Source of the DNA: an uncultured Pirellulaceae bacterium
GTDB taxonomy: Bacteria > Planctomycetota > Planctomycetia > Pirellulales > Pirellulaceae
Assembly: GCA_937967505.1 (NCBI GenBank)
Contig: CALCJM010000059.1
Span: 1-38,378, forward strand
Reading direction: 5' to 3'
DNA: 38,378 nucleotides
The notes beneath the pieces were generated by a model. It worked only from the letters and a program-made list of their open reading frames with translations. It made no database searches and was not told where the DNA came from. Positions 28,931 to 37,215 of this stretch are shown here, piece by piece. Each line of letters starts with the position of its first letter. The first letter of the stretch is position 1. A program made the translations under genes and the position numbers.

Positions 28931-29809
28931 ATGCCAACCGACACTCTACTTCAGCAATATCAGCAATTGAATCAAGGCGCTGCCTGTGTACGGATCGACA
29001 GTTCGGTCATAAGAATCACCGGCGACGATCGCCACGCGTTTCTGCACAATTTCTGCACCAATGAAATCAAGGCGTTGGCTGTGGACGCCGCCTGCGAGGC
29101 ATTCGTACTTAATGGCAAAGGCAAAACGATCGCTCATGTGCACGTGTTAAACACGAGAGATGCGCTGATCCTGCACGCGGTCGGCGGGATCGCCGCCCGA
29201 CTGATCGAGCATCTGGACTGCTATATCATCAGGGAGGATGTGCAACTGGCCGACCTGTCCGATCAATGTCAGGTCACTTTCGCGCCCGGCGATTCGCAGT
29301 TGCCCAGGAATTCTGTTGATGTTGATGATCAATCCGGCAACATCGCGGCTAACGTGGAGATCGCCGGTTTTGGCAATCTGCTGATTGGTAAAACGGGGGG
29401 CGACTCCGATACTGCCGAAGTCTCCCCCGCCGCATTGGAGATGATACGAATTGAGCAACGTACGCCGTGGTTTGGCCGCGATATTGACGATTCCAACCTG
29501 CCACAGGAACTGGTGCGCGATGACCAAGCGATCAGTTTCAACAAGGGCTGCTATCTGGGGCAGGAGACCGTCGCCCGCATCGACGCGATGGGGAAGGTCA
29601 ATCGCGTGCTCTGTGCGGTCAGGCTGGATCAGGAGCTGCCCGTTGGTGCAGAACTGACCGTCGATGAAAAAGCGAAAGGGAAACTCACATCCGTGGCGTG
29701 GTCACCGCAGCATGACTGCTGGCTGGGGTTGGCGATGGTTCGCCGCCCCCATGAGGTGCCGGGTTCGATTCTGCATGGCCAGCGCGGGAAGGTGACGGTG
29801 GTGCAATGA
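28931..29809 (+). CDS. ygfZ: tRNA-modifying/folate-binding protein YgfZ
   Basis: A 292-aa GcvT-like protein that binds folate and supports Fe-S enzymes such as tRNA methylthiotransferases. The family hallmark KGCYLGQE (205-212) is present with its conserved Cys, followed by TVARIDAMGKVNR. The N-terminal part RITGDDRHAFLHNFCTNEIKAL fits the GcvT fold start. The C-terminal barrel ends with SVAWSPQHDCWLGLAMVRR, as in relatives. It is shorter than full glycine-cleavage T proteins, which fits YgfZ. The last four bases overlap the start of hisA (ATGA), so the two genes are translationally coupled. Confidence 0.9.
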   Translation: MPTDTLLQQYQQLNQGAACVRIDSSVIRITGDDRHAFLHNFCTNEIKALAVDAACEAFVLNGKGKTIAHVHVLNTRDALILHAVGGIAARLIEHLDCYIIREDVQLADLSDQCQVTFAPGDSQLPRNSVDVDDQSGNIAANVEIAGFGNLLIGKTGGDSDTAEVSPAALEMIRIEQRTPWFGRDIDDSNLPQELVRDDQAISFNKGCYLGQETVARIDAMGKVNRVLCAVRLDQELPVGAELTVDEKAKGKLTSVAWSPQHDCWLGLAMVRRPHEVPGSILHGQRGKVTVVQ

Positions 29810-30579
29810 TCGGCAGGAGAACGCAATTTCGCCCCTGTATCGATTTGCACGAGGGACACGTCAAACAAATTGTTGGGAGCACGTTGTCTGACACCGGAGC
29901 GGATGAGAATTTTGTTTCCGATCGTCCCTCAAGTCATTTCGCGCGTATGTTTGCCGGTGACGATTTGACCGGCGGACACGTGATCATGCTGGGACCGGGC
30001 AACACGGACGCCGCCAGGGAAGCGCTTGCCACGTGGCCGGGCGGTCTACAGGTTGGCGGTGGGATTAATCTGGATAACGCCTTGGACTGGATCGAAGCAG
30101 GTGCCAGCCACGTGATCGTGACATCGTGGCTGTTTGATCAGGATGGGGGATTCCTTGAGGACCGAGCGCGGGCATTGGCCCACACGATTGGTACGGATCG
30201 CGTGGTCATCGACCTTAGCTGCCGCCGCCATGAGGATGGCTGGATCGTTGCCATGAATCGCTGGCAGACGCTGACCGAACTGGCCGTGACGGCTGAAACG
30301 CTGGACCAACTGGCCAGATACTGTGACGAATTTTTAGTGCATGCAGCCGATGTGGAAGGGAAATGCGGCGGTATCGACAGTGAATTAGTGGAACTACTCG
30401 GACGCTGGCAAGGCAAACCGGTGACCTACGCCGGTGGCGTTGGCAACATGAACGACGTGGAACTGGTGCAGGATCGCAGCCGCGGATTTGTGGATGTCAC
30501 AGTCGGCAGTGCATTGGATATCTTCGGTGGTGCGGCCATTTCCTATCAACAGCTGGTCCAATGGAACCGGCGTTCTTGA
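29806..30579 (+). CDS. hisA: Phosphoribosylformimino-AICAR ribotide isomerase, eukaryotic type
   Basis: This 257-aa (beta-alpha)8 enzyme performs the fourth step of histidine synthesis, the Amadori isomerisation of ProFAR to PRFAR. The sequence follows the fungal and plant HIS6 branch rather than ordinary bacterial HisA. Shared segments with yeast His6, from memory, include CIDLHEGHVKQIVG (11-24), PSSHFARMF, HVIMLGPGNTDAAREAL, LQVGGGIN (81-88), VIVTSWLF, VIDLSCR (134-140), WIVAMNRWQTLTEL (146-159) and FLVHAADVEGKCGGID (176-191). Both half-barrel phosphate loops (QVGGGI and TYAGGV) are intact, so the enzyme should be active. It overlaps ygfZ by four bases; no other his genes are in the window. 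A transfer from or to eukaryotes, or an old shared lineage, is possible. Confidence 0.9.
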   Translation: MIGRRTQFRPCIDLHEGHVKQIVGSTLSDTGADENFVSDRPSSHFARMFAGDDLTGGHVIMLGPGNTDAAREALATWPGGLQVGGGINLDNALDWIEAGASHVIVTSWLFDQDGGFLEDRARALAHTIGTDRVVIDLSCRRHEDGWIVAMNRWQTLTELAVTAETLDQLARYCDEFLVHAADVEGKCGGIDSELVELLGRWQGKPVTYAGGVGNMNDVELVQDRSRGFVDVTVGSALDIFGGAAISYQQLVQWNRRS

Positions 30580-30693: not shown

Positions 30694-30787
30694 GAATGGT
30701 CTTTCCGGGAAGAGTATATTGGTCGCCCATTTTCGTGAGCATGGGATGACGTGCCATATTAACGTTGCTTTTACAGGCAGATAATTG

Positions 30788-31945
30788 ATGTCCGCTGGCC
30801 GTTTCGCACTGGTTCTGCTGTTTATCGTGGGCGCGTTTGGCGTCGGCTGGCTGCTGGGCACTCGCACCCCCAACGCTTTGGTAACTTCCACCGCACCGGA
30901 GGAATCTGATGCGACGCTGATGATCGCGCGCGTTGTCGCCCAAGGGAAACTTGTCCCCGCCAACGGGATTCACAATGTCCTCACCTCCCCGGGCCAGCGT
31001 ATCGAATCGGTTTTGGTTGCGGAAAATGATGCGGTTGTTGCCAACAAAACCCAACTGGCGACCGTTGAGGGAGAACAGGTTTTGGATCTACAGACCGATC
31101 TGGTTGATGCTCAGGCCGACGAAGCGCTTGCGCAGCTTGATCAAAAAATCTTGCGGGCCAAAAGCAGTCTTGTTGCTGCTGAAGCCGCCGTCCAGTCGGC
31201 GAAATGGAAGCGTGCCCAAGCCGACAAAGGCATCGATCTGACCGTATCGCATAAACAGGTCGATGTTGCCAACGAAAAACTGGCGCGATTGCTCAAACTA
31301 CAGGAGGATCCGGATACGCAGTTGTACGTTTCGGCAGGCGAAGTGGTTGATCAACAACTGGCAATCGAACAGGCGGAATCGCAAATCGAAGCAGCCCGAC
31401 GTAAGCAAAAATCAGCATTGGAAGCCAGCCTATTGGCCGTTGACGTTGCACTTCAGTCGCGCGATTCGGCTCAACGAGCCCTCCAGGCATTGGAGGGGTT
31501 GCGCAAAAATCAGCGTTCGGCAACGTTGTCCAAACAGATCGCGGCAGACAAACGCGCTGCTGCACGAATTATTTCGCCGGTCAGCGGCACGGTGCTGAAG
31601 GTACTCGCCAAACAGGGCGATGTCTCCGGCAATCTTCCGTTGATACAGATCGCAGACCTTTCTGACATGCAGTGCATCGCCGAAGTCGTCGATCGGCTGG
31701 TTGGTGCAGTAAAAATTGGACAGCGCGCCACAATCACCAGTCCCGCCCTAGAAACACCAATTTCGGGCAAAGTGATTTCGATCGGTCGGTTTGTCGGTCA
31801 AAGTACCATGCCACAGCCAAGTCCTTTTGCGTTGGTGGATCGAAAAACGGTCGATGTGCGAATCAAAATTGACGCTGACGACGTTGACACTGCCAATCAG
31901 TTGGTAAATCTACAGGTTACCGTTGAAATTGACCCTGACCGTTAG
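30788..31945 (+). CDS. HlyD/DevB-type membrane fusion protein of an ABC exporter
   Basis: A 385-aa periplasmic adaptor from the ATG at 30788. One N-terminal membrane helix (FALVLLFIVGAFGVGWLLG, 6-24) anchors it. A half-lipoyl strand region (RVVAQGKLVPANG, SPGQRIESVLVAENDAVVANKTQLATV) precedes a long coiled coil of about 150 residues (roughly 95-245, for example DAQADEALAQLDQKILRAKSS and QLAIEQAESQIEAARRK). The second half-lipoyl (SPVSGTVLKVLAKQGDVS) and the beta-barrel domain (IADLSDMQCIAEVVDRLVGAVKIGQRATI) follow. The layout and following genes match DevB of cyanobacterial DevBCA exporters. It links the inner-membrane complex to an outer-membrane TolC-like channel. The first permease follows after 125 bp. 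Confidence 0.88.
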   Translation: MSAGRFALVLLFIVGAFGVGWLLGTRTPNALVTSTAPEESDATLMIARVVAQGKLVPANGIHNVLTSPGQRIESVLVAENDAVVANKTQLATVEGEQVLDLQTDLVDAQADEALAQLDQKILRAKSSLVAAEAAVQSAKWKRAQADKGIDLTVSHKQVDVANEKLARLLKLQEDPDTQLYVSAGEVVDQQLAIEQAESQIEAARRKQKSALEASLLAVDVALQSRDSAQRALQALEGLRKNQRSATLSKQIAADKRAAARIISPVSGTVLKVLAKQGDVSGNLPLIQIADLSDMQCIAEVVDRLVGAVKIGQRATITSPALETPISGKVISIGRFVGQSTMPQPSPFALVDRKTVDVRIKIDADDVDTANQLVNLQVTVEIDPDR

Positions 31946-31986: not shown

Positions 31987-32031
31987 GCGTCCGGCCGTCC
32001 TGGCGTCCCGTCAGTGGCAGGGCCGGATCGC
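31987..32031 (+). repeat. GC-rich hairpin between the devB-like and first devC-like genes
   Basis: GCGTCCGGCC (31987-31996) pairs with GGCCGGA (32021-32027) and CGC (32029-32031) with one bulged T, ten base pairs around a 24-nt loop. It fills the 125-bp gap inside the operon. It could stabilise the upstream message or attenuate transcription into the permeases. There is no T-run. Confidence 0.45.
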
Positions 32032-32070
32032 ATTGTGCGACCAACTTTTGAATACGACACGATTGAAACC

Positions 32071-33240
32071 ATGCGAATTAACCTGGCGCTACTGAACATC
32101 CTCAATGACCCGCGTAAGACGGCGTTGTCGGTGGCAGGAATTGGAATCGCGATCTTGCTAATTTTTATGCAACTTGGTTTTCGCGGTGCGATCGAAAATA
32201 CCGCCACCAACATTTACGGCAAACTTGATTTTGATATTCTCCTGCGGTCGGCAGACTACCTGCACTTTATGGACTGTGGCAAGATCGATCGTGACGCACT
32301 GGACCAGGCCGCAGCAATGAAAGGCGTCCAGTCGGTCAATTTCCTGAACGTGTCGGTTGCCAATTGGCGGAACCCACAGTCTGGCACCACGCGCGGCATG
32401 CTGGTCATGGGCATTGAGCCTGATGAATCCCCCTTCAAAGACCGCGCGGTCGATCGCGATTTTGATTTGCTGAAAAATGATTCCGTCCTGTTGGTCGATC
32501 AGCGATCACATCCTGAATTTGGCCCGGCCAACGGGCAAAAATTTTCACATCAGGACATTGGCAGAATCAGTGAACTTGGCGGCAAGCGTGTGCGAATTGC
32601 CGGATTGTTCAGCATGGGAGCCGGTCTGGCGGCCAACGGTGCGGCGATCATGTCACAAGTCGCCTTGGAAAGAAATGTCCCCGGCAGTCACAAAAGTCGC
32701 GTTTCCTTCGGGCTGGTAAAAATCAGTCCCGGTCATTCCCCGGCGGAGGTGGCGTTGCGGATCCGGGATCGGCTGAGGATCTCCCACACGCAAACCAGCG
32801 TGCAAATTTTAACGCGCCCGACTGTCGTCCAACAGGAACTCGACCGCTGGCTGGGAGAGACGCCGATCGGGTTTATCTTCACCTTGGGTGTGCTGATTGC
32901 GTTTGTCGTTGGTGCGGCGATCGTCTATATGGTTTTGGGAAATGACGTGGCCAACCGGTTGCACGAATATGCTACCCTGCGGGCGATGGGATATTCGAAC
33001 ACTTACATGGGGATTACCGTGCTGAAACAGGCCGGATTTCTGGCATTGTTTTCGTTCGTTCCCGCTATCGTATTGGCATTGGCACTCTATTGGCTGACCG
33101 GCGTCGCGGCAAATCTGACCATGGAGATGAATACAACACGCGCGGGATTCGTGTTGCTGATGACGCTGGGAATGTGCGGTATCTCTGGAGTATTGGCAAT
33201 GCGGAAGTTATGGAAGGCGGAACCGGCTGAACTCTTTTAG
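32071..33240 (+). CDS. DevC/FtsX-type ABC exporter permease, first copy
   Basis: It is 389 aa from the ATG at 32071; a GTG at 32014 inside a hairpin is unlikely. It has the MacB/FtsX layout: an N-terminal helix (TALSVAGIGIAILLIFMQLGF, about 18-38), a large periplasmic domain, then three C-terminal helices (about 280-305, 330-355 and 365-385). FtsX-type motifs include FIFTLGVLIAFVVGAAIVY and NDVANRLHEYATLRAMGYSN. It ends with the basic AMRKLWKAEPAELF tail typical of DevC. It would form the membrane part of the exporter with the next gene. The pre-helix NILNDPRKTALS motif is shared with that gene, showing tandem duplication. Confidence 0.88.
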   Translation: MRINLALLNILNDPRKTALSVAGIGIAILLIFMQLGFRGAIENTATNIYGKLDFDILLRSADYLHFMDCGKIDRDALDQAAAMKGVQSVNFLNVSVANWRNPQSGTTRGMLVMGIEPDESPFKDRAVDRDFDLLKNDSVLLVDQRSHPEFGPANGQKFSHQDIGRISELGGKRVRIAGLFSMGAGLAANGAAIMSQVALERNVPGSHKSRVSFGLVKISPGHSPAEVALRIRDRLRISHTQTSVQILTRPTVVQQELDRWLGETPIGFIFTLGVLIAFVVGAAIVYMVLGNDVANRLHEYATLRAMGYSNTYMGITVLKQAGFLALFSFVPAIVLALALYWLTGVAANLTMEMNTTRAGFVLLMTLGMCGISGVLAMRKLWKAEPAELF

Positions 33241-33271: not shown

Positions 33272-34453
33272 ATGTCGGCTCCAACCCCTTTGGCTTGGAA
33301 GAATCTGACGCACGATCCGCGCAAACTGATGATTGCGATTTCGGGAATCGGTTTTGCGGTCCTGCTGATGTTCCAGCAACGCGGGTTTCGCCACGCGCTG
33401 TTTGACAGTACGGTCGCGGTGGTGCATGAGCTGGACGCGCATCTAATTATCTTTCACCAAAACCGGTTTGCCCTGTCCAGCGAAGTCCGGTTTGACCGCA
33501 GCGTACTGGACGTTGCCGCATCGACCCCCGGTGTCGCCGCAGCCAATCCGGTCTACATGGAGAACCAACTGGCGCGGTTTCGCGCACCCGAAAACAAGGC
33601 GCGACCGATTCGCGTGGTCGCCTTTGACATTGGTAAAAATGTGTTGGTAAAATCTTCTGTTGAAATTGCGCTTCAACTACCATCGCTGCGTGATCCCGGT
33701 ACGGCATTGATGGATCGATTGAGCAAACAAAACTTTGGCGTAGACTTCACCGCTGTCCAACCCGATGGCAGCTTCCGTAATCAATCGGCCGAACTGTCGG
33801 GAAAACAACTGGATGTTGTCGGCACGTTTCTGCTGGGACGCGATTTTGCACATGACGGTACGTTGGTCATGTCTTCAAACAATTTCGCGCGGTATTTTGG
33901 CTATCGAGGGGCAGATCCGCTGACGATCGTTGATCTGGGGGCGATCCGTTTACTGCCGGGGCAGTCAATCAAGACCGTCAAAGCAAATTTACGCCGACAG
34001 CTTGGCCCGCAGGTGACGGTGCTGACAAAGCAACAGTTCGTAAACAAGGAGATCGACTTCTGGGCACGAAACACACCGATCGGCGTTATTTTTGCGATCG
34101 GTGCGACGATGGGGTTCGTTGTCGGAATCATTATTTGTTACCAGGTATTGGCCAACGACATTACGGAACACATTGGGGAATTCGCCACGCTCAAGGCCAT
34201 GGGGTACAGCAATGCGTACTTTTTTGCGCTGGTTGTTCGGCAGTCGTTATACCTAGCATTGCTGGGATTCGTTCCCGGTTTGATTTGTTCGTGGCTGCTG
34301 TTTCAGGTCAACACAAGTTTTACCGGGTTGTTGATGAACCTCAGTTGGGATCGGGCGCTGTTTGTGATGGTGCTGACCATTGTAATGTGTATCCTCTCGG
34401 GGCTGTTGGCGCTGCGGAAACTTTTGGCGGCCGATCCGGCCAGTTTGTTTTAA
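33272..34453 (+). CDS. DevC/FtsX-type ABC exporter permease, second copy
   Basis: A 393-aa permease with the same layout as the gene 31 bp upstream: helix 1 (LMIAISGIGFAVLLMFQQRGF, about 18-38), a periplasmic domain, and three C-terminal helices. The shared motifs TPIGVIFAIGATMGFVVGIIICYQV, EHIGEFATLKAMGYSNAY and RKLLAADPASLF line up with the first copy, but the periplasmic domains differ widely. The two probably form a heterodimer over the one ATPase, instead of the DevC homodimer of cyanobacteria. The ATPase gene follows with a 19-bp gap to its ATG. Confidence 0.88.
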   Translation: MSAPTPLAWKNLTHDPRKLMIAISGIGFAVLLMFQQRGFRHALFDSTVAVVHELDAHLIIFHQNRFALSSEVRFDRSVLDVAASTPGVAAANPVYMENQLARFRAPENKARPIRVVAFDIGKNVLVKSSVEIALQLPSLRDPGTALMDRLSKQNFGVDFTAVQPDGSFRNQSAELSGKQLDVVGTFLLGRDFAHDGTLVMSSNNFARYFGYRGADPLTIVDLGAIRLLPGQSIKTVKANLRRQLGPQVTVLTKQQFVNKEIDFWARNTPIGVIFAIGATMGFVVGIIICYQVLANDITEHIGEFATLKAMGYSNAYFFALVVRQSLYLALLGFVPGLICSWLLFQVNTSFTGLLMNLSWDRALFVMVLTIVMCILSGLLALRKLLAADPASLF

Positions 34454-34472: not shown

Positions 34473-35606
34473 ATGATTAACGAAGATATCGATATCGATC
34501 AATTGATTGCTGCGTGGGCCCCGCAACCGCATGAGTTGAGTGTCAATGTTGACGGCGTCAATCACTCCTATGGTGAAGGCGACTTGCGGAAACAGGTGCT
34601 GTTCAACAACCGGCTGAAGATTCGTCGTGGTGAGATCGTCATTATGACCGGTCCTTCGGGCAGTGGGAAAACCACCCTCCTGACGCTAATCGGCACGCTC
34701 CGCAGTGTCCAGGAAGGCAGTCTGAAGGTATTGGGCACGGAACTGAAGGGGATAAACGCACGGGCCACGACTGATTTGCGGAAACGGACGGGCTTCATTT
34801 TTCAGGCACACAATTTATTTGAATCGCTGTCCGCTTTCCAAAACGTAGGCATGTCCACTGAACTGATGGGCATGAAACACACACACGCCAAACCCAAGAT
34901 CGAGGCGACTCTTCAGCGGTTGGGATTGGGGCAACGCATTCACTACAAACCAAAGTCGCTTTCTGGTGGCCAGAAGCAGCGCGTTGCGATCGCGCGCGGC
35001 ATCATCCATCAACCAGATTTGATTTTGGCAGATGAACCCACCGCCGCACTGGATGCGGGATCAGGGCGCGAGGTGGTCACGATCTTTCAGGAGATGGCAC
35101 GGGAACACGGTTGCACGATTCTGATTGTCACACACGACAATCGAATCCTGGATGTTGCGGACCGGATCGTGAACATGGTCGATGGCAGTATTCATTCCAA
35201 CGTGTTGGTCCAATGGAATTCAGCGATGTGCCAAATCCTGAACGACTTCCCTGTCTTTCGCGGTCTCACCCCCAGTGCCATCTCCCAGGTCGCGGACATG
35301 ATGGAGTTAAAACGCTATTCGCCGGGCGCACAGATCATTCGGCAGGGGGCGATAGGCGACGAATTTTTTGTGATTGGCAAAGGTGTCGTCGATGTGATTG
35401 TAGATGGGGAAACCGTAAACACTCTGGTCGATGGTGCTTTTTTCGGCGAGGTATCCCTGATCAAAGAGCAACCGCGCAACGCCACGGTCATCGCCAAGTC
35501 CGACGTTTCGTGTTTTGTCCTGAGCAAGGATGAGTTTCAGGCAGTGGTGGAGTCTAACAGCACTTTCGAAGAGGAATTGCGAAAGGCGATTTTCATGCGG
35601 CAGTAG
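34473..35606 (+). CDS. DevA-type ABC ATPase fused to a cyclic-nucleotide-binding domain
   Basis: It is 377 aa from the ATG at 34473 (a TTG at 34458 would add five). Residues 20-245 are a full MacB/DevA-type ATPase: Walker A GPSGSGKTT (60-68), the Q-loop Gln in FIFQAHNLF, signature LSGGQ (163-167), Walker B LILADEP (183-189) and the H-loop His (about 221). DevA and MacB ATPases normally end near residue 245. This one goes on with a cNMP-binding domain of about 120 residues (FPVFRGLTPSAISQVADMM, GDEFFVIGKGVVDVIV). Its phosphate-binding cassette FFGEVSLIKEQPRNATV keeps the GE pair and Arg that hold the cyclic nucleotide. ATP-driven export may thus be gated by cAMP, cGMP or a relative. It is the last gene of the exporter operon. 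Confidence 0.9.
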   Translation: MINEDIDIDQLIAAWAPQPHELSVNVDGVNHSYGEGDLRKQVLFNNRLKIRRGEIVIMTGPSGSGKTTLLTLIGTLRSVQEGSLKVLGTELKGINARATTDLRKRTGFIFQAHNLFESLSAFQNVGMSTELMGMKHTHAKPKIEATLQRLGLGQRIHYKPKSLSGGQKQRVAIARGIIHQPDLILADEPTAALDAGSGREVVTIFQEMAREHGCTILIVTHDNRILDVADRIVNMVDGSIHSNVLVQWNSAMCQILNDFPVFRGLTPSAISQVADMMELKRYSPGAQIIRQGAIGDEFFVIGKGVVDVIVDGETVNTLVDGAFFGEVSLIKEQPRNATVIAKSDVSCFVLSKDEFQAVVESNSTFEEELRKAIFMRQ

Positions 35607-35664: not shown

Positions 35665-37215
35665 TCACTGCGGAGCAGCAAATGATCTCAAGAGCCCTTC
35701 GGTTGGTGCTTCCAATACTTTGGCTGGAACCGAAGCGTCATATGAACCGCCCACAGGGTACTCTTCGCCAAAGAATTCGATTGAAGCGGCCGACGCAATG
35801 GTGTCGGAATGACGGGTGGGGTTTTGATGTGTTCCATAATCACCACGGATACGTTTCAGTTTGACCTGATCGAGTGCAAGTCGGAACTGCTGGTCGATTA
35901 TTTCTGATTGAAGTTTGGTCACTGCCAGCCGTTTCTTCAGGTGAGCGCCCGGGGCCAAGGGTGTTTTGTCCTTTGCCTTTTCGGCGACCCGAATCGAATG
36001 TTGCAAGCTGTCCAATCGCTGCTGCTTGAACTCCAGTAATTGCCAGTTGGATTGCAGGGAATCGATCACTTCACCCAGCGCGCGTTTGATCAGGTTGCGC
36101 TTGGCCTCCGCTAGGGCCAGCATTTGCAAGCGGCGGCGCTGCGTCTCTTCAGCGGTCACGGCATCGTATTTGCGTTTCACTTCGTCCTTGATGTGCTTGC
36201 TGCGCCACCACGCCGCGGCAGCAGCAGGACGCGGCAACCCGGCTCCCAAAAAAGGCGAAGAACTGGTGACGATCGCGCGGAACTGGTTGGCCGTAAATCG
36301 ACTGCAATCGTTCGCCAGCAACTCAAGAGCTTTCAAATCCGCGCGTTGAACGATCGCAGTTGCAAATTGCTGTTCCAGATTAAATGACCGTCCGGGCAGC
36401 GATGCGTGCTGCATGTCGGTCCAAATTGGAGTCTGGCTAAATTCGATCCGCAACAGCAACTCCAGCCCGCGGGTCAACCGCTGTTGCTTTTGACGCAGTC
36501 CGATGGTCAACTCCCTAAGCTCGATTGTTTGGCGTTCGATGTCGGAGGTGTCGACTGCTGGCGAAATATCGGCATCACGAATCTTGTCCAACGAACGTTT
36601 CGTATCGCGCAGAATCGAGTGTGATTCTGCAAGCGTTGGCTGCTGGCAGTAGACGTTGGCGAGATTCAAAAACAACTCAAGCGCCTGCCCGGTATGCAGG
36701 TTCCGCTCGTGTGCGGCCTGTTGCGTCAACGCTTCAAGCAGAATCGGACAAGCGGCGTTGTTGCGTTTCAACCAGTCGCGGTGTTTTTCAATTTCTCTGG
36801 CGATCGGTGAAACCGCTGCGGCGCGGCGTTGAGTTTCAATGCGGCTCAAATTACGCAGCGGCGTATTGGCAACGGAGGCGTCGTCAGCAATCGGCCAACC
36901 CAAGATCGGTTCACCGGTGGTCGGAGCCGTGACCGGGTTGCGAAATTCAAATTCAATCAGCGGTAACGGGCAGGTCTCTGGTGGCTCCGGCAGGCACAGG
37001 AGAGGGCAGGGGGGACACGGATCTTCCCAACCCTGATCGCGGCGGAGACAATTCTGTGGGACGCGGCAGCCTGAAACCAGAATCAGCAAAAACAAGGTCA
37101 CCAGCAAGAGCGTGATGGGAACACAATGCCGGCACACCCACAGCTTCTCCGTAAAACGGTGCCCCCAACCGCCTTTATCGGGTTGAGCGTCGATTAAGAG
37201 AGCGGTGTTTCTCAC
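35665..37215 (-). CDS. Probable TolC-like outer-membrane efflux lipoprotein
   Basis: A 516-aa protein with a lipoprotein signal: a hydrophobic core (ITLLLVTLFLLILV) and lipobox LVSGC with Cys50. The n-region is long and an in-frame GTG at codon 27 may be the true start. After a Cys/Pro-rich piece (about 54-85), the rest is mostly alpha-helical with heptad-like repeats. Examples are LAESHSILRDTKRSLDKIRD, LRELTIGLRQKQQRLTRGLELLLR and the ATAIVQRADLKALELLAND motif, resembling the A-x-x-N-R-x-D-L-x-A-x-E motif of outer-membrane efflux proteins. A helical pair LLEFKQQRLDSLQHSIRVAEKAK and LQSEIIDQQFRLALDQVKLKRIRGDY resembles the second TolC repeat. The match is weak. It converges with the exporter ATPase gene 58 bp away and could supply the outer-membrane channel. 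Confidence 0.62.
   Translation of the reverse strand: MRNTALLIDAQPDKGGWGHRFTEKLWVCRHCVPITLLLVTLFLLILVSGCRVPQNCLRRDQGWEDPCPPCPLLCLPEPPETCPLPLIEFEFRNPVTAPTTGEPILGWPIADDASVANTPLRNLSRIETQRRAAAVSPIAREIEKHRDWLKRNNAACPILLEALTQQAAHERNLHTGQALELFLNLANVYCQQPTLAESHSILRDTKRSLDKIRDADISPAVDTSDIERQTIELRELTIGLRQKQQRLTRGLELLLRIEFSQTPIWTDMQHASLPGRSFNLEQQFATAIVQRADLKALELLANDCSRFTANQFRAIVTSSSPFLGAGLPRPAAAAAWWRSKHIKDEVKRKYDAVTAEETQRRRLQMLALAEAKRNLIKRALGEVIDSLQSNWQLLEFKQQRLDSLQHSIRVAEKAKDKTPLAPGAHLKKRLAVTKLQSEIIDQQFRLALDQVKLKRIRGDYGTHQNPTRHSDTIASAASIEFFGEEYPVGGSYDASVPAKVLEAPTEGLLRSFAAPQ

Follow-up and report, generated by a model that had tools for sequence, protein, structure and literature searches.

Control of tripartite exporters has mostly been described at the level of transcription. 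The DevBCA-HgdD system of Anabaena exports heterocyst glycolipids together with the TolC-like partner HgdD (PMC8277102). HetC of Nostoc PCC 7120 is an ABC exporter with a PF00027 domain; its C39 peptidase, transmembrane part, and ATPase share one chain with the cyclic-nucleotide-binding domain (CNBD) near the N-terminus, and its function needs that domain (PMC10986499). CNBDs also occur on MFS transporters (PMC10710835). The window analyzed here, a stretch of 38,378 nucleotides from an uncultured Pirellulaceae bacterium, encodes an apparent operon in the order DevB-DevC1-DevC2-DevA, whose last gene specifies a DevA ATPase that continues into a CNBD (Table 1). We read it, with a probability of roughly 0.5, as encoding a putative specialized DevBCA-type tripartite exporter whose DevA would be gated by a cyclic mononucleotide.

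Table 1. Features of the window and of related loci (positions in the window unless a locus is named)
Feature	Location	Strand	Basis
DevB membrane-fusion (periplasmic adaptor) protein	30785..31945	+	TIGR02971, 161.4 bits (cutoff 129)
DevC1, first FtsX/MacB-type permease	32014..33240	+	TIGR01185, 281.7 bits, just under 290.35; "first" clade
DevC2, second FtsX/MacB-type permease	33272..34453	+	TIGR01185, 298.0 bits (cutoff 290.35); "second" clade
DevA-CNBD fusion ATPase, 377 aa	34473..35606	+	One open frame, ATG at 34473, stop ending at 35606, uninterrupted across 377 aa; both domain families matched
DevA ATP-binding domain, residues 24-240	34542..35192	+	TIGR02982
CNBD with flanking helices, residues 256-377	35238..35603	+	PF00027; helices and strands of the model
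Phosphate-binding cassette FFGEVSLIKEQPRNA, residues 323-337	35439..35483	+	E326 and R335 conserved
Divergent TolC-like protein, probable outer-membrane partner	35665..37215	-	Profile, Foldseek, recurrent neighbor
Convergent lipid gene set downstream of DevA	L061, L063, L065, L069, L070, L084, L091		

The initial annotation had assigned the gene to a "MacB/DevA-type" ATPase with intact motifs. The motifs are all there: Walker A (GPSGSGKTT, residues 60-68), LSGGQ (163-167), Walker B (LILADE, 183-188), and the H-loop (H221). As to type, DevA fits best, since TIGR02982 gave 331.3 bits over residues 24-240, above its curated cutoff of 295.8 (PF00005 gave 111.7 bits), and MacB is the nearest solved fold. 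Foldseek searches with the whole protein returned MacB and YbbA ATPases at the top, followed by LolD, MetN, and FtsE; the 50 rows listed were matches of the ATPase domain and left the CNBD unplaced. That a cNMP-binding fold follows in the same frame was borne out by PF00027, which scored 72.6 bits over residues 280-362 (gathering cutoff, 27.5; E = 2.7e-20). Only ABC_tran, cNMP_binding, and generic P-loop models were found by the Pfam scan, which detected neither a C39 peptidase nor a transmembrane part in the fusion chain and so sets it outside the HetC type. A phmmer search of the CNBD against the PDB matched PKG, PKA-R, and HCN/CNG domains, the best E value (5.9e-49) being a sum over several PKG domains. 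The AlphaFold2 model (81 sequences; mean pLDDT, 87.7; pTM, 0.78) predicts an ATPase fold joined through a linker helix (residues 246 to 257) to a CNBD-like beta roll and its C-terminal helices.

The cassette had been noted to keep the Gly-Glu and Arg residues, and this holds across the family. In the 80 rows covering the cassette (from the window and the best 80 of 573 loci; L076 is cut off), Gly325, Glu326, Arg335, and Ala337 are invariant, with Glu and Arg each at 80/80, whereas Pro334 is kept in 73 and Asn336 in 71. No 14-aa segment of the CNBD is better conserved than residues 324 to 337 (mean identity, 0.79; median of such segments, 0.55). In the same alignment, the entire CNBD has a mean identity of 0.58, less than the ATPase part (0.73). 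The Glu-to-Arg spacing aligned gap-free with PKG domains in the phmmer comparison with the PDB. Such conservation argues for a functioning ligand pocket, from which the identity of the ligand does not follow. We regard the CNBD as quite probably a ligand-sensing allosteric domain, an estimate that adds the reading of a cyclic mononucleotide to the lesser chance of some other nucleotide. The likeliest ligand would be a cyclic purine mononucleotide. At the position after the cassette Arg, cAMP sites have Ala and cGMP sites have Thr. The aligned PKG domains have Ser or Thr there and the window protein has Asn, a polar residue that hints at cGMP or an unusual ligand.

Sensing of a non-cyclic nucleotide such as ppGpp or GTP, which would tie export to starvation as proposed for HetC, is the strongest competitor, although rather unlikely. 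In the HetC study, cAMP, 2-OG, and c-di-GMP were without effect on the N-terminal part, GTP, GDP, and ppGpp stabilized it, ppGpp was bound weakly (Kd about 59 uM), and HetC without its cNMP domain failed to restore heterocyst maturation (PMC10986499). HetC shows that an ABC exporter can depend on its CNBD, and that such a domain may take a non-cyclic ligand. What tells against a non-cyclic ligand here is that the Glu-Arg cassette, unbroken in 80/80 rows of the window plus best-80 alignment and PKG-like in spacing, is the arrangement expected for binding of a cyclic phosphate. A second possibility, that the CNBD is a docking or dimerization module with no small ligand bound in the cell, appears improbable. 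Many PF00027 domains bind no cyclic nucleotide, and C-terminal domains do exist on ABC ATPases, with MetN and MalK-type chains among the Foldseek matches; the second domains of these chains do not superpose, given an rmsd of about 12 to 14. A purely docking role is hard to square with the retention of both Glu and Arg in every row of that alignment, and with the fact that the ligand contacts lie in the most conserved segment of the domain.

A possible source of a cyclic mononucleotide was sought in the genome of the window (88.9% complete). Its one match to PF00211 (class III cyclase-like), at a modest 59.4 bits, lies in a protein of 643 aa that hits nothing else in Pfam; an FHA-like N-terminus considered for this protein matched no Pfam model. 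By our reading, the protein has both metal-binding Asp residues and the Asn/Arg pair and lacks the usual purine-specifying Lys. The only other PF00027 match in this genome is a Crp-type regulator with the Crp helix-turn-helix. PF00211 was present in 16/16 fusion-bearing genomes versus 37/44 other relatives, a co-occurrence too weak (Fisher p = 0.17) to serve as proof of a cyclic ligand; PF00211 counts in fusion-bearing genomes and the others gave p = 0.003, and counts per Mb p = 0.06. The distribution is compatible with a cyclic ligand and is not evidence for it.

ABC_tran and cNMP_binding were matched in one frame in 81/81 aligned members, i.e., the window and the best 80 of 573 stretches encoding some relative of the query, a choice that under-samples far relatives (PF00027 accepted at E up to 0.001). 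Several members are near-copies (e.g., L047 and L081), and contig ends cut three of the 81 (L076, L081, and L102). An assembly error, a frameshift read-through, or a local accident can be dismissed, because all 81 records share the same in-frame fusion, which is also present on isolate chromosomes such as those of Lacipirellula limnantheis and Adhaeretor mobilis. Nor did any of these best 80 homologues split into two genes; the nearest approach to a two-gene form was L137, where a GAF-bearing DevA has its CNBD in a separate neighboring gene. By their record titles, the best 80 loci belong to Planctomycetota (63), Verrucomicrobiota (11), and others (6: four deltaproteobacterial/Syntrophaceae, one gammaproteobacterial, and one unclassified). 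Among 60 genomes comprising the window's own and its relatives, the match ran from the ATPase into the CNBD in 16 (one cut by a contig start) and the best match ended at the ATPase in the remaining 44. When 392 genomes, the window's own among them, were drawn evenly from the phylum, 10 gave a match at E up to 1e-60, with the fusion in 4 and the ATPase only in 6. The fusion is thus conserved but patchy. The initial annotation's generalization that DevA and MacB ATPases normally lack such a domain stood in a softer form, in that DevAs are often without it; none of 87 matching records in the plasmid collection covered 80% of the query.

Phylogeny places the fused ATPases together. A quick tree of the ATPase domain (111 rows, with long-branch warnings) set 85 fused rows, namely the window, the best 80 of 573 loci, and four from further genomes, on one side of a branch with an SH-aLRT of 88. 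A careful tree of 59 rows, built without an outgroup from 40 of the 85 fused rows (17 chosen, 23 random) and other rows, supported the fused clade at 99/94. In both trees, the 19 CNBD-less DevA loci, a small set picked as the best CNBD-less matches (8 from plasmids, 11 from planctomycete genomes), fell outside this clade. The two groups also differ in permeases. Two DevC genes were called in 54 of the 85 fused loci, the window among them, one in 9, and none within the examined stretch in 22, versus one in 19/19 CNBD-less loci; less than 4.5 kb upstream was examined in 12 of the 31 fused loci with one or no DevC. Where at least 4.5 kb upstream was examined, 48 of 67 fused loci had two DevC genes, 7 had one, and 12 had none, versus one in 17/17 CNBD-less loci. 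These calls relied on bit thresholds of our own setting (NBD, 90; CNBD, 30; DevC and DevB, 60; OMF, 15), and L095 was scored as having two DevC genes with one copy split over two ORFs. A tree of 123 DevC proteins, including 52 of the 54 two-DevC loci (L095 and L056, whose DevB is out of view, were omitted), gathered the 52/52 DevB-side copies in one clade (support, 100) and the 52/52 DevA-side copies in another (99), with the 19 single copies of CNBD-less loci standing apart (94). Both kinds coexist in genome G059, as a fused locus with two DevC genes (L144) and a CNBD-less locus with one (L133). Given the two-DevC counts, the clean DevC clades, and the single fused clade, a single duplication of the permease and a single gain of the CNBD go hand in hand. 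Each apparently happened once, so the link is unreplicated, a correlation of one.

Some fused loci depart from the paired arrangement. Three from Rhodopirellula (L105, L109, and L110) carry a fused DevA, DevB, and the first-type DevC only, the second copy being missing or elsewhere. Others (e.g., L072, L077, L085, and L093) have DevB and no DevC within the examined stretch. Large ORFs adjoining DevC-less fused genes were scanned as odd permeases, and none of the 18 proteins matched FtsX: a 1073-aa frame in L044 matched nothing, an 882-aa ORF in L055 matched MMPL, and a 725-aa ORF in L077 matched an ABC-2 permease, next to which a separate ATPase of its own is encoded.

The motor also occurs with a different sensor domain. 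In two DevAs, the place of the CNBD is taken by a C-terminal GAF domain, in L127 (5007-6329, on a plasmid of Nostoc sp. C052; 51.6 bits) and L137 (511-4200; 60.4 bits). In L137, the gene at 401-1594 fuses a CNBD to a CAAX-protease (Rce1-like) domain, and it adjoins the GAF-bearing DevA and DevB-like and DevC-like genes.

The outer-membrane partner is probably the TolC-like protein encoded convergently to the operon. The window protein itself had no Pfam match; OEP was matched by 6 of 12 aligned TolC-like proteins, the window protein not among them. A profile of the 12 matched SilC, TolC, and CusC in the PDB (best E = 6e-6), and Foldseek of the model placed OprM, TolC, and CusC on top (best E = 4.8e-6). 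A TolC-like gene lies near 42 of the 85 fused loci within the examined stretch, 28 of this type and 14 of the ordinary OEP type, the latter lying on the DevB strand and upstream of that gene. The two TolC-like queries, both derived from fused loci, had no match in any of the 19 CNBD-less loci. The model, at a mean pLDDT of only 71.0, consists of helical hairpins with no beta-barrel strands. The two segments presumed to hold barrel strands span only 24 to 36 and 34 to 49 residues in the window protein and 11 homologues, and the planctomycete version has a lipobox-like SGC. Planctomycetes may thus possess a barrel-less outer-membrane factor, of which we found no description in the open-access literature searched.

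By analogy with the heterocyst glycolipid exporter, the pump probably carries a lipid or glycolipid. Downstream of the operon, 7 of the 11 fused loci from Verrucomicrobiota have, on the opposite strand, genes for a PAP2 protein, a further ORF, and a ketosynthase-type protein. In L065, the only one of these loci scanned for the domains of these genes, the PAP2 protein is similar to phosphoinositol dihydroceramide synthase, at 157.5 bits against a cutoff of 480. The ketosynthase-type protein, of 1317 aa, combines domains of the ketosynthase, carrier-protein, and dehydratase families, each above its Pfam cutoff, with a C-terminal part like BioF/serine palmitoyltransferase, at 347 and 291 bits, below the cutoffs of those models. 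Because of these ketosynthase/serine-palmitoyltransferase-like and ceramide-type PAP2 neighbors, a sphingolipid-like cargo is suggested at those verrucomicrobial loci. Lipid genes of this kind were seen in that one verrucomicrobial group and none lies beside the window operon, whose neighbors (HisA, a YgfZ/GcvT-like protein, RsgA, and a weak PQQ-repeat match) gave nothing useful on cargo. The HisA gene (29806-30579, plus strand) scored above the cutoff of the eukaryote-type model (TIGR02129, 371.5 bits; cutoff, 229.3) and reached 58.1 bits on the usual bacterial model, far under its cutoff of 228.95.

In the working that we propose, the adaptor DevB, the permeases DevC1 and DevC2, and the TolC-like outer-membrane partner would be driven by a DevA with a C-terminal CNBD. 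The two DevC proteins are non-identical and would probably form a heterodimer. The CNBD is predicted to bind a cytoplasmic nucleotide second messenger through its conserved Glu-Arg cassette; binding would rearrange the C-terminal helices, and their shift would favor or block closure of the two DevA subunits, so that ATP hydrolysis and export might be switched on or off at the motor. A broader version is more tentative: in one ancestral step, a clade mostly of Planctomycetota and Verrucomicrobiota may have gained both a heteromeric DevC1/DevC2 and the CNBD, with a cyclic nucleotide gating trans-envelope lipid export. If true, this would be a ligand-gated MacB-type pump, controlled by a second-messenger switch rather than by transcription alone, and a sensor conserved on the ATPase across the family would let a machine of this type be switched directly, at the post-translational level. 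The fusion DevA would also be a candidate for the receptor served by the nucleotide cyclase-like proteins that these planctomycetes encode.

Set against known systems, the window operon shares the DevB, DevC, and DevA NCBIfam families and the order DevB-DevC-DevA with DevBCA-HgdD and other DevA exporters, and a TolC-like protein is the candidate counterpart of HgdD. It differs in the CNBD on DevA, in having two DevC genes, where classical DevBCA has one, and in the TolC-like gene near the operon. Unlike HetC, the closest precedent, it has a separate MacB-type ATPase with the CNBD at the C-terminus. In MetN and ModC, a small molecule controls the motor by way of a C-terminal domain on the ATPase (reviewed in PMC10710835); these differ in being importers with domains of other folds, inhibited by their own substrate and not by a nucleotide messenger. 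The open-access literature searched, outside of which most subscription papers lie, described no DevA or MacB ATPase bearing a CNBD, and no account of a paired-permease DevBCA subtype was found there. With HetC, MetN, and ModC as precedents, the fusion would thus represent a known principle on a new carrier. LolCDE, also of the FtsX/MacB type, combines two different permeases with one ATPase. LolD chains are among the Foldseek matches of the fusion ATPase, whereas the window sequences belong to the DevA and DevC families; to our knowledge, LolD has no CNBD and LolCDE no TolC partner. The pairing of DevC genes points to a pump within the DevBCA group that would be asymmetric in the manner of LolCDE.
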